This document shows, piece after piece, positions 49,375-55,467 of a stretch of DNA of 64,000 nucleotides (the stretch's first letter is position 1; each line of letters begins with the position of its first letter). The notes under the pieces were generated by a model, which worked only from the letters and a program-made list of their open reading frames with translations, ran no database searches and was not told the origin of the DNA. Made by a program: the position numbers and the translations under genes. Origin of the DNA: Microcystis elabens FACHB-917 (GTDB lineage Bacteria > Cyanobacteriota > Cyanobacteriia > PCC-6307 > Cyanobiaceae); assembly GCF_014698445.1 (NCBI RefSeq), contig NZ_JACJSZ010000012.1, forward strand, positions 1 through 64,000, given 5' to 3'.

Positions 49375-50415
49375 TCAGCGGCGTGCTGCGCGCACGGCGC
49401 GGCGCAGACGCCTGGACCAGCGGAAGGCAGCCGCCAACCCAAGGGCCGGAAGCGGACCAGGCACCTCCTGGGTGGACTGGACGGCACCGATGTCACGGAA
49501 TCCATAAGCGGTGCGGGGATTGCCATACACATCAGTATCAATCACGCTGCCATCAATCGGGCTGCGCAGCTGGTTGACACCATCGGCATCCGCGATCGCA
49601 CTGCGCAGAGGGCTGCCCGGCACGAGATAGGCGCCCTCCGGCAAATCGCCAAAAGTCAAACCACCATTTGTTAACGCGTAAGGAATGGCTCCGGTGAACA
49701 AGCCTGGCTGATTGAAGAGAGCCTGAAGGGCGGTTGGATCAAGCAATGGGGTTGGCTGCACGTAAGTGAATGAATCAGCCTTGAGATCACCGGAGGCAAA
49801 AGTTGAGAAGGTTTCTAAATAGGGATAATTAATGGGGAGCAGCTCCATGTTGATCGCCGAAATTATACTTTCTTCCAGATTAATAGTGCCACCATCGAAT
49901 GCCTGCAAGGGGACCCCGTTGCAGAGGTATTCCCCACTGTTCGCAGGAAGTTCGCAGTTGACACCACCAGTCATGGTGAAGAGTCCGTTCAGCTGCACCG
50001 TGGAGGCGATCAGATTGACAACGCCTCCATCCCAGGCCTGAATGCGCCCTACCTGCGCGTCGGCACTCTCAGGCTGGAACAAACTGTTCACGAAATTGAG
50101 AACACCCTCCTGACCTCCGTTGTCGGTGATGGAAAGCCCGCCGGCACTGCCGGTAAAAATGGAAGACACAATATTGGCCGTGCCCCCCAACCAATTTACC
50201 CCTCCCAAACTGGTGGACAGACCCTGGACTTGGCTATTCACCATATTGAGTGTCGCTTGGCTGCCAGAGATGGCACCGATCCAGACCTCCTCAAAGCCAG
50301 GAATCGACTCGAAAAGTGGATTGATCCGATCCAACGTGACACCGGTGAGATTCACTGTAGCGCCCTCTAGGGCATCAATGGCACTCCGACCTCCAAAGCC
50401 ATAAAAGATAGTATT
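49375..50415 (-). pseudogene. Secreted beta-helix protein, C-terminal part after an in-frame TGA
   Basis: 346 residues after the TGA at 50416-50418. Repeated beta-helix-like units (GATVNLTGVTLDRI, QATLNMVNSQVQGL, GTANIVSSIFTGS, GVVNLIASTVQLNG, GTINLEESIISAIN), then YGNPRTAYGFRDIGAVQ, and the sorting tail VPGPLPALGLAAAFRWSRRLRR. First ATG in this part is at 50355. It is in phase with 50416-50937, so the two are one gene cut by a nonsense codon. Confidence 0.75.
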
Positions 50416-50937
50416 TCAGATTACACTGTTGGTCACAGTGGCAACAGCGTTTTTGCCCACTTCCAGAAACCCGTTGAGCCCGTTTGCTGAGAGATTGTCT
50501 ATTGAAACGGATACATTATCCTCCACAGTTGCGAAGGAAAAGGCTTCCCTAACAATTATGTCAGTGCCTACGGGCGTTGATGGGTTGAATTTGTTGTAAA
50601 TATATCCACCGCTGGACACGAATGTGGGATCGCCCAACAGGGTGACTCCATTGCCCAGAATATTTACCGACTCCGTGATGCGGCTAAGGAAGGAGGAAAT
50701 TACCGGCGTAGAGTCATCCACATTGATGGTGTTGCCGCTTACCAGTTGTAGGTCGATCGTGTCCAGCCCGGGATTGGTATTGGCCTGGTTGAGGGCCCAG
50801 GCGAAGCTGTTCGTCGTTGTCGCATCACCCCAGAACGACTCTGTCACGGTGAAAACAGCCGCAGAAGCAGGCAGGCACGCGCTGAATGGAATGCCGCTCA
50901 CCAGCATGCACGACCACAGGCGTTTGCGGATGTTCAT
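50416..50937 (-). pseudogene. Secreted beta-helix protein, N-terminal part
   Basis: 173 aa from the ATG at 50937. Signal peptide (CMLVSGIPFSACLPASAAVF), then choice-of-anchor style start FTVTESFWGDATTTNSFAWA LNQANTNPGLDTIDL and strands ending ATVTNSVI before TGA. The next codons, NTIFYGFGGRSAIDALEG, continue the domain. A single change TGG to TGA would explain the stop. Confidence 0.75.
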
Positions 50938-51475: not shown

Positions 51476-52379
51476 GGACTCGGCGCCGAGAGCGGCGCAG
51501 CGACGGGACTGATCCCAGCGGGGGCCTGACGACAGGAAGGCCCCAGACTGGAGAGGCCCGGAGCAAGGCGGCTACAACAGCCAGCACTCTGGATCTCACT
51601 CTCACTGGTGCCAGGGGCATGGCGGAGATGGATATGGAGCTGCTTGCTGCTCTGCTAGGTGGCCCGTGCCGACGCCTGCGGGATGCCAACCACCTCGATT
51701 CCCACAACATACTGGTGTGGGACCAGCAGCGCCAGCCCGCCATCGCGGCTTTGCCCTTTCTGGTGCTGCTCAGCCTCTACCCGTTCGGAGAGCAGGCAGG
51801 CAGCCACTGGAGCGGGCAGCCAAGCCAGCGAAATGGTCATCAGGTGGCTCAGTTCTCGGCGATGTCGCCTCGATGCCGATCTGCCAAACCTTCATCGCGA
51901 ATCTGCAGTGGCCACTGCACTGCGGAGCGCAAACTCGATGAGACGAAGGCGGGCGAAGACGTGGCGACTAGGGCCCTCCCGCTGCTGGTTGTGGTCCAGG
52001 TGGTGGACGAGCGGATGCTGGTGGCTGATGTGATAAACCGCTGGTGAGCGACATTAAGGTTACAACCAAGGTGTGACCAGAATCACATCTTTGTTCCCTA
52101 AAAAGAGCCCCGACAGGATGTTCTACCTTGCTAAAATTTTAAATTGAATCAAACAATGCAGTAACCCAATGGCTTAGGACGTCTGGTCCCATTGCTATAC
52201 GAGCTTTGCCATGCCCACGTTGACCGCGCTCCAGCAGTGCCGTCCCCCTGGGCCGTTCTCGGCAAGGGTTGCCCGGCCTGGGGTCGGTGAGTGATCGGCG
52301 ACTGCGCCGCCGACCAACGACGGAAGGCGGATGCATTGTCCAGCGCCAACTCCTAAGCCATCCCCCTCAGTCGCCATCC
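51476..52379. other. Long gap upstream of the CRP-like gene
   Basis: About 900 bp. Frames here are not convincing; the minus frame near 51655-51840 (SERVEAEQHQKGQSRDGGLA) could be a remnant, family unknown. After 52.05 kb the DNA becomes AT-rich. It contains a perfect CRP-type palindrome at 52072-52087. Confidence 0.4.
52072..52087. promoter_or_regulatory. Perfect CRP-type box TGTGA-N6-TCACA
   Basis: TGTGA-CCAGAA-TCACA, an exact match to the CRP/SyCRP1 consensus, 293 bp upstream of a cNMP-binding regulator frame. No E. coli-like promoter is clear near it. Confidence 0.6.
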
Positions 52380-52817
52380 ATGCAAGCAGAAACGAGCCCA
52401 GAATCAGGCGAGAACCCCTTCGGCTTCGAGTCTCTGAGATCTCTTCAGGATGGACGCTTCGAACAGACGTCCTACTCCCGCAGTCAGGTCCTGCTCAAGG
52501 AACGGGATTCCCTGAACGCCGAGCTGGTGATCATCGATGGTATTGTGAAAGTTCGCAGTTGTCTCTTTGATGGTAGCGAGAATGTACTGGGGATTCTCGT
52601 CAGCGGCGAATGCATCAGTATCGCCAGTGTATTCGGAGCTGTGCGTTCCTTGGGGGATGTGGTGTCAATTACCCCGCGGCGGCTAATCCGGCTCCCTTGG
52701 AGGCTTGCTTCTCCCGCCGCTGCCAGGCGGCTGCCCGGGTTGGCTATCGCCCGCTGCCAACCGGTCTGCTGGCTGCCTGCCACTACCGGTTCGGCACAAG
52801 CAGTCCGCCAGCGCTGA
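52380..52817 (+). pseudogene. CRP/FNR-like regulator, N-terminal cNMP domain with broken C-terminus
   Basis: From the ATG at 52380: ENPFGFESLRSLQDGRFEQT SYSRSQVLLKERDSLNAELV, IIDGIVKVRSCLFDGSENVL GILVSGECISIASVFGA. This is a cyclic-nucleotide-binding jelly roll. After about VVSITP the frame becomes Arg/Pro-rich nonsense; another frame reads PLEACFSRRCQAAARVG. No helix-turn-helix domain is found. So the DNA-binding half has been lost or scrambled. Confidence 0.6.
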
Positions 52818-55454
52818 TCGAGACACGCTGGCATCGCTGGTGCCCCGCACAACGGCGACTTCGAGCGCTTCAAACTTCCGACGGCCGAACTGGAGTTCAC
52901 CGACGTTGGCCGCTGGTTGGAGCAGGTGCTGCACCAGGGCCATGCGGCAGTGGGCGACTCGCCAAAGTTTGCCGGCCTGATGGATCTGCTGATTACCCAG
53001 GGGGATTGGTATGCGGCGGTGAGGCTGGCGGCTCAGCAGGTTTTCCCCCACGACGACCCCGCACCCTCTTTGGAGGAGCTGGAACGCTGAACGGCATCCT
53101 TCGAGGCGGGCTTCCAGGCGCTGCCGGCAGAGCAGCCCTCGACCGCCTTCGATCCCGCTGATCCCGCCGTTCATCAGCTCGCGGATCTGCTCCTGCTATG
53201 GCTCGCGAATGACGATCGGCTCCACCACCATGGCCAGAAGCAGCAGCGCCGCTGGATCGACGCCAGCATTGAAGCGTTTCTGCGCAACGATCCCGCTCGC
53301 GCGGTGATGCAGTTCATGGAGCTGGCCCGGGGCAGCTTCGGGCTGGTGGTGGTCTCCTCAACCTGGCCGGACCGGCTGGTGCTCGCCAGCCTCGGCCAGC
53401 CGATCACACTTGGATTCGATCCGGCAGCGCCGCAGGCGGTCTACGCCTCCGAACCGGCGGCGGTCGATGCCGTGCTGGCCGGAGTGCGTGGCGCCTACCG
53501 GATCGACCTCGATCAAAACGCGGGTGAGATGGCGGTGCTCGCCTGCGCCGAGCTCTTCCTCCATTCCCTCTCGCAGGGGCGGGAGGTGCCGGATCGGGAG
53601 CGGCTGGAGCGCCGCCACTTCCATGGACAGGATCCAGCTGGTACTACGGCCAATGCCCACCGCTCCTCCGGCCGTCGTGCCGCCGGCCGCCGCCCTGACC
53701 CGGTGGGCGACGACCTGCGTTCGATCCCCGGGCTGCTGGCTGCGATTCGCAACGACTGGATCGATCCCGGTTCCGCCAACCGACAGAGCGCTGACCACCT
53801 GGCCCAGTTCCTGATTGCCAAGGCGGCCCACCTGGCCCAGAAGCAGGCGGTGCTCAGCGGAATAAGGCTGGATCCGACCCTGGCGAAATCGCGCCACGTG
53901 GACCTGCTGATCACCGGGGTTGAGACCAGCCTCTGGCTGGGGGAGCAGTTTGCCCGCGATCTGCAGAGCCTGATGCCCCTTCTGAGCGTGCGGGCCCTCT
54001 CCGCCGACGCGGTGCTGCAACACCTGCAGTACGACATCGAAACGCTGGGTCTCGCCCGTCAGTCGATCGTGCTGGTGCTCACCCATTCCGGCCAGACCTT
54101 TGCCAGCCGCCAGGTCGCGGAAACCTGCGACCTGCTGGTGCGTCAGGAGGTGATTCGTGAGCTGTTCGTACTCACTGGTGAACCCACCAGCTTCCTGGGA
54201 TCGCCGCTGCTGGAGGTGCTGGCTCCAGGCGAGCCGTTCTGCCGCCGGCTGTTCACCACCGGCGCCGGACGCCGACTCGCCGAACCGGCCACGGCCACTG
54301 TGGCCGCGATGAACCAGACACTCACCGAACTGTTGTTCTGCCTCTGCCGCCAGGTGCAGCAGGCCTTTCCGGACCAGCTTCCCCTTGGGCTGCGGCTTCC
54401 CTCTGAAGGCCTGATTGCCCTGGAGGATATGGAGGGCCATCTCTTCCTCGAAGACGTGGCCACAATCGTCGGCGCTGACGCCACTGGGCTACGGCGGCCT
54501 ACCGAAGTGTCCCAACAGCTGCGCCGCACGGGGCGGCGCAGGGCCCTCCACGTGCTCGAAACACCTGCCGCCTGGTTGATCCATGCGCTCTACATCCTGG
54601 CCAGCGTGGGGGTCTCCATGCCCCTGTTCCGCACCCTGATCAACGCGGCATTGCCGTTGTTCGGGGGAGGGGAACGGTTGGACGATGTGCTTCTCGCTGT
54701 GAGTATGTCCGCCGATGTTGCCCTCTATGTGTTTGGTCCCTGGGTATGGACACTTGGGCTACGGCTGATCCAGGGCCGCCCACTTCTGGCCCGCACCGGT
54801 CGCCGCACCGTTGTGATCGGCGAGACCGAGGGGGTGTACCAGCTGCTGGTGAACTATCTGAGCAAGTTGTTTGCCCTCAGCTTCGGTATCGCCGCCGTCG
54901 ACGTGCAGGGGGCTGATCCTGTCGATCACTTCCTGCACATCCAGGCCCACCGGGTGGTGCGTGGGACCTTGGTTTATCTGGAAGTGCCCGATGGACGCTG
55001 CGGCAAAGGGCAGGAGTCCCTGGTGCAGGCAACGATTTTAGCTGGGCGTATGGCCGATGGTATCCTCCACCTTGGGGTCGGCCCGGAAATTGTGGCCGTT
55101 GGCTCAGACCCCCGGCTGCGGCAGGAGGCCTTCAGTGAAGAGATTGTGCTTCCCTGCCCGACCGCTCCCCGACCTGGGAGTGAGCCCCCCGATCTCGGGA
55201 TTGGATTCGAAGAGCTGCGTGAATCCCGTTTCGGAAAGTTCCGCCGACTGCTGGCCGCTTACGTGCTGTTTTGGGCGATGGGCCGTCGCGTGGCCGCCCT
55301 GCCGTTGATCGGTTTCGACTGCTGGCGCTCCCAGAGCCGCACCAAGGTGATGACCACCTCCTCCCCCATCTCGGCCGCCCGTCTCGATCTCACTGAAATT
55401 GAGGAGATCCGGGAGCTGGCACTGGAGGATCTTTCCCGCCGGGAGCAGAGCTGA
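52818..55454 (+). pseudogene. GlmS-like protein: class II glutamine amidotransferase + SIS + membrane region, broken at the 5' end
   Basis: The frame opens at 52818 and reads AGAPHNGDFERFKLPTAELE (HNGDF of class II amidotransferases), then a TGA at 53088-53090 in phase, then 788 open codons (first ATG 53304). Later: GSFGLVVVSSTWPDRLVLAS LGQPITLG and AVYASEPAAVDAV (amidotransferase), LLITGVETSLWLGEQFARDL and LVLTHSGQTFASRQVA (SIS sugar-isomerase fold), then about 3-4 hydrophobic spans (LIHALYILASVGVSMPLF, ALYVFGPWVWTLGL). The N-terminal catalytic Cys region is absent. An unusual membrane-anchored GlmS relative; the upstream part is decayed. Confidence 0.7.
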
Positions 55455-55467
55455 GCTTCAGCTGATC

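Follow-up and report, generated by a model that had tools for sequence, protein, structure and literature searches.

Positions 52,691 to 55,454 of the window (the whole 64,000-nucleotide stretch of DNA that was analysed) hold a pseudogene on the forward strand, the decayed second copy of a cyanobacterial membrane protein of ~1,210 residues. The host genome is a 3.68-Mb draft in 121 contigs, and the genomes of its genus and family in the collection used go under the names Cyanobium and Synechococcus. A first piece of the gene (52,691-52,857, +), corresponding to residues ~265-322 within the amidotransferase (GATase) domain and recognized by tblastn and blastn against intact homologues, lies in another frame than the rest; comparison with homologues places after it the middle of the GATase domain with HNGDF and GDSPK (52,848-53,087, +), an in-frame TGA (53,088-53,090, +), and the C-terminal half of the domain (53,091-53,620, +), delimited by the open frame and the alignment. 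Downstream follow the phosphosugar-binding SIS1 domain with its THSGQT loop (53,690-54,500, +), assigned by alignment and by the match of the corresponding part of a paralogue model to GFAT isomerase domains; membrane spans (54,555-54,765, +) evident from alignment-averaged hydropathy and model helices; and a conserved, poorly modelled and putatively SIS2-like C-terminal region that closes with a conserved Q-S-R-T-K tail and a stop (54,780-55,454, +). An earlier note on this DNA had read HNGDF, THSGQT and several hydrophobic spans as parts of one frame, which is confirmed, with HNGDF from ~52,848 and THSGQT at ~54,081, and the GlmS-like, membrane-spanning architecture that it deduced is borne out in intact homologues, the window copy itself being broken.

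Three lesions are seen. The first ~265 codons, among them the catalytic Cys end noted previously as missing, are gone, and the remainder is fused to another broken gene. A frameshifting 77-bp deletion lies between the pieces of the window copy, and in Synechococcus sp. 1G10 it is bounded by AACGGCG repeats. The TGA at 53,088, suspected from the outset of interrupting the GATase frame in phase, indeed does so and replaces a Trp found at the equivalent site in all relatives. Beyond it the frame is open from 53,091 to 55,451 (787 residues), with a first start at GTG 53,304 that would give 716 residues. The intact gene of Synechococcus sp. 1G10 (locus L027) is 85% identical at the nucleotide level over 2.6 kb (52,848-55,455) and 80% identical over 52,691-52,857, with similarity ending before 52,691; this 85% identity, together with the 62% protein identity between the long frame and a paralogue in the same genome, means that the resemblance is not due to chance. 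The dN/dS ratio of the window copy against L027 is 0.28, as compared to 0.23 and 0.21 for intact pairs. The codon patterns thus still look constrained, and the window branch is ~5 times longer than that of L027, the nearest relative in a tree of the shared region; together they point to decay that set in fairly recently.

The gene to which the remnant is fused is the 5' fragment of a cNMP-binding (Crp/Fnr-like) gene (52,380-52,703, +; PF00027, E = 1e-6), the homology of which stops at ~52,700 with the C-terminal HTH half absent. The fragment shows 32-36% identity to the Crp proteins that are linked to intact family members (see below), has lost key pocket residues and is without the GELA pocket motif; no closer relative of it was found among 201 genomes of the host's family. 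It was considered as a partner or orthologue of the linked Crp and rejected on this level of identity and on its orientation, which is same-strand rather than divergent. The low identity and different orientation indicate that the window shows no conserved pairing but two broken genes joined by chance. The earlier expectation that a cNMP gene and the membrane protein belong together therefore fails for the window's own pair, but it holds for the family in one clade, where eight genomes carry a divergent Crp gene. A perfect CRP-type palindrome, TGTGACCAGAATCACA (TGTGA-N6-TCACA; 52,072-52,087), stands 293 bp upstream of the cNMP fragment; it is one of only two such sites in the 3.68-Mb genome, and 0.02 would be expected in the window. 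Another apparently broken gene nearby encodes a secreted-looking protein (49,375-50,937, minus strand) in two frames, 50,416-50,937 and 49,375-50,355. No tRNA hinting at an island is present between 44 and 60 kb of the window, and the plasmid records searched gave no match.

An intact paralogue of 1,208 residues, free of stops, is encoded in the same genome (G000:C34:86888-90511). In the tree the window copy groups with L025, L026 and L027, nearest to the Synechococcus 1G10/Cyanobium FGCU6 clade, and the C34 copy groups with L017, L023, L024 and L028 within the host's own clade; these separate placements point either to old paralogues or to horizontal arrival of the window copy. A scan of genome contigs yielded 21 loci, all of them cyanobacterial (Cyanobium, Synechococcus, Aphanothece, Phormidium, Pseudanabaena, Pleurocapsales, Acaryochloris and others); adding the C34 copy, the G090 copy (L017) and the split G457 remnant (L022) brings the number of loci to 24. 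The family is rare (3 of 386 genomes phylum-wide, 8 of 201 within the host's family). All near-complete homologues have membrane spans; homologues lacking them, which by the earlier note would have refuted its reading, did not appear. Damaged or truncated-looking copies occur at L022, L038, L039, L040 and L041, some of which may reflect contig ends or MAG errors, and a 3.5-kb contig carries another fragment, L011. The decayed copy in G457 (L022:9634-11639) begins as a DUF3365-like sensor, as judged by eye, that runs into a broken GATase/SIS piece.

Single members scanned against Pfam and NCBIfam yield nothing above cut-off for GATase, SIS or M50. The GlmS model NF001484 reaches 11.1 bits (E 0.09) against a cut-off of 381, PDB sequence searches give at best E 1.8, to GlmS glutaminase, and PADLOC yields no match for the membrane protein. 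Literature searches found no published description of this architecture, and the membrane-anchored GlmS-derived family is apparently undescribed so far.

Alignment and modelling lay out the intact members as a multi-helix membrane domain followed by a class II (Ntn) GATase, a SIS domain, a membrane hairpin and a SIS2-like tail. Conserved in the alignment are an invariant C-G (Cys196), RG, HYRFGTSGPP, HNGD, GDSPK, S(Q/H)SGQT and a terminal Q-S-R-x-K. The AlphaFold2 model of the paralogue (mean pLDDT 67.8, pTM 0.47) gives in Foldseek a best PDB match to human GFAT-1 over its whole length (E 2.6e-12), and by VIA-align it matches the GlmS glutaminase (1xff) with Z 25.8 and 2.5 A over 239 of 239 residues, such that model residue 187 (Cys196 of the full protein) superposes on residue 1 of the glutaminase chain. 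SIS1 of the same model matches GFAT isomerase domains with Z of 15-17 (loop THSGQT/SQSGQT), and hydrophobic spans at ~912-972 in the averaged hydropathy are helices in the model. The C-terminal part is of low pLDDT and only putatively SIS2-like; its Lys tail is conserved. Whole-length profiles of the family and of GlmS align colinearly; the isolated SIS1 and SIS2 regions gave no usable alignment in hhalign.

The catalytic Cys is thus residue 196, preceded by a conserved membrane domain, and not the N-terminal residue. Class II amidotransferases require the Cys as their N-terminal residue, its free amino group being a general base, and acid ceramidase is an internal-Cys Ntn enzyme that cuts itself at that Cys (PMC9140057). 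The internal Cys196 consequently implies either that the chain is cut before this residue or that glutaminase activity is absent. Most members retain the full set of GATase catalytic residues together with the SIS phosphosugar loop. In L017, L023, L024 and L028, HNG, HYRF and GDSPK are altered, and the GATase dN/dS among these loci is 0.18-0.34; residue loss accompanied by continued selection speaks for a function in binding or regulation, in this lineage at any rate. A separate canonical GlmS (758.8 bits) is encoded in the host genome.

The first ~195 residues contain hydrophobic spans and, in the alignment, the M50 motif order HGxGH ... G(G/P)xxN ... SxxDW. His63, His67, Asn139 and Asp182 are invariant in 21 rows, and Gly takes the place of the catalytic HExxH Glu in every aligned member except L042, which has HELGH. 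When the domain is modelled alone (pLDDT 78.5) its top VIA-align match is the site-2 protease 3b4r, with a modest score (Z 7.5, 134 aligned); neither Foldseek (E 1.5) nor Pfam gave a significant match for it. The M50 assignment is an idea drawn from the motifs which the modest structural match supports short of proof.

The surroundings of the intact genes differ among lineages. In eight Cyanobium-group genomes (L003, L017, L023, L024, L025, L026, L027 and L028) a Crp-family gene lies head-to-head with the GlmS-like gene. The linked Crp proteins are 65-92% identical to that linked to the C34 copy and retain a cAMP-type pocket, GELAMLLG...R[S/T]AD. L025 and L026 have no further flanking gene cluster in common with other loci, which suggests that Crp and the GlmS-like gene travel as a unit. 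A perfect TGTCA-N6-TGACA of varying spacer is found in the shared promoter region in all eight, about 41-43 bp before the Crp ATG in three genomes and 89 bp in a fourth, and there are only 2-3 such sites per genome searched; G090 and G175 have three each, of which two flank the GlmS-like gene. The second of these lies just past its 3' end (G090:C1:2766742-2766757, G175:C1:90970-90985) and perhaps controls the next gene.

Five of the eight Crp-linked loci continue with an AAA-type class III cyclase; the one beside Crp at L003:9449-12568 matches TIGR03903 (TOMM_kin_cyc) with E 2.4e-155, below the cut-off and without the kinase part. At two other loci a CHASE2-class III adenylate cyclase (L029:6745-8979, L030:6745-8979) is close to the GlmS-like gene, and ~180 bp upstream of the latter stands TGTGA-N6-TCACA, of which there are 2-4 sites per genome and which is the SyCRP1 consensus (PMC2633013). 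The Pleurocapsales-type loci L035, L036, L038 and L042 share a homologous divergent gene of ~590 residues upstream of the GlmS-like gene, that of L038 being recognized from the resemblance of its start. Scans of three of these genes gave matches to GGDEF, one just under cut-off, and for L035 to PepSY_TM as well. About ten lineages have no cyclic-nucleotide neighbour, so the link is suggestive and not universal. Of the "signalling or surface-sugar system" envisaged in the earlier note, the cyclase, Crp and GGDEF neighbours favour signalling, and the surface-sugar part has no direct support.

The best explanation of the whole is that the window holds a decayed copy of a Crp-controlled, membrane-held, GlmS-derived sensor or regulator that binds glutamine and a phosphosugar. 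As judged from sequences and models this reading has about an even chance of being correct; it is favoured over a membrane amino-sugar synthase, with ligand, cleavage and function all predicted. In the Cyanobium group the divergent Crp would bind TGTCA-N6-TGACA, and a cyclic nucleotide acting through Crp would set the expression both of Crp itself and of the GlmS-like protein. The latter would be a membrane protein whose GlmS-like body projects into the cytoplasm, there to bind glutamine and a phosphosugar, its main job being to sense nitrogen/hexosamine status as distinct from the separately encoded housekeeping GlmS; glutaminase activity, if present, should require cleavage just before Cys196. 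However, the catalytic residues kept in most members suggest catalysis, which counts against a sensor. A bolder proposal, tentative and on the whole rather unlikely, is that a pseudo-site-2-protease joined to a GlmS-derived body constitutes a new receptor class for nitrogen/hexosamine status, wired through a dedicated Crp, in which the internal Ntn Cys may be a cleavage-activated switch.

A membrane-bound amino-sugar synthase is a less probable but serious alternative. Such an enzyme would be cleaved before Cys196, release ammonia from glutamine and use its SIS domains to aminate a sugar phosphate at the membrane, serving surface polysaccharide under cyclic-nucleotide control. The conserved GATase motifs and SGQT loop of most members speak for it, as do the whole-length structural match to GFAT and the terminal Q-S-R-x-K, which resembles the GlmS tail with its Schiff-base Lys. 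However, no polysaccharide gene was recognized among the neighbours examined, a canonical GlmS is already present in the genome, four genomes have lost GATase residues yet conserve the protein, and Arg appears at the position of the GlmS catalytic Glu in an alignment made by eye and not confirmed. A self-processing membrane zymogen, in which an active or autocatalytic M50-like protease domain would cut the chain ahead of the Cys, is improbable. The four invariant residues of this domain, the HELGH of one member, the site-2 protease as top structural match and the self-cleavage of internal-Cys Ntn enzymes of the acid ceramidase type (PMC9140057) agree with this proposal, but the HExxH Glu is replaced by Gly in every other aligned member and a protease domain is unnecessary for Ntn self-cleavage. 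Expression of the frame remaining from GTG 53,304 as a functional protein of SIS-membrane-SIS2 layout that lacks GATase is less probable still: the 716 codons are open and dN/dS to 1G10 is near that of intact relatives (0.28 vs 0.23), but no homologue of such shortened architecture occurs among the loci found, and the promoter and start have been replaced by a foreign gene fragment. That the gene is intact in the cell and only looks broken through faulty assembly or sequencing is hardly credible, even for a draft of 121 contigs, in view of three lesions independent of one another (extensive loss with fusion to another gene, a repeat-mediated 77-bp deletion and a stop) and the long window branch.

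If the sensor or regulator reading is right, the family would form a bridge between glutamine/hexosamine metabolism and second messengers in freshwater picocyanobacteria. It is in any case a scattered cyanobacterial family with a class II amidotransferase fold buried behind a membrane domain and invisible to Pfam, and the catalytic-residue loss in some members offers a natural test between enzyme and sensor. Class II amidotransferases are soluble enzymes in which the Cys becomes the N-terminus. The family resembles GlmS/GFAT in the order of GATase II and SIS, in an Ntn fold with Cys-Gly, HNG and GD, in the SxSGxT loop and in a Lys-containing C-terminal tail. Unlike GlmS/GFAT, of ~610 residues, the family protein is about 1,210 residues long, has a ~195-residue membrane domain before the Cys and a membrane hairpin between the SIS regions, and has turned up only in some cyanobacteria and beside signalling genes. 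With M50 site-2 proteases (MjS2P, 3b4r) it shares a multi-helix membrane domain containing HxxxH, G(G/P)xxN and a later SxxD in the same order; it differs from them in having HGxGH for HExxH in all aligned members but one, in the GATase fusion and in a weak structural score. The regulatory side is similar to cAMP-CRP systems of the SyCRP1 type in its Crp-fold regulator, similar cNMP pocket and symmetric N6 palindrome, with the canonical site at L029 and L030, whereas the local divergent Crp with TGTCA-N6-TGACA, present at only 2-3 sites per genome searched, sets it apart from that type.
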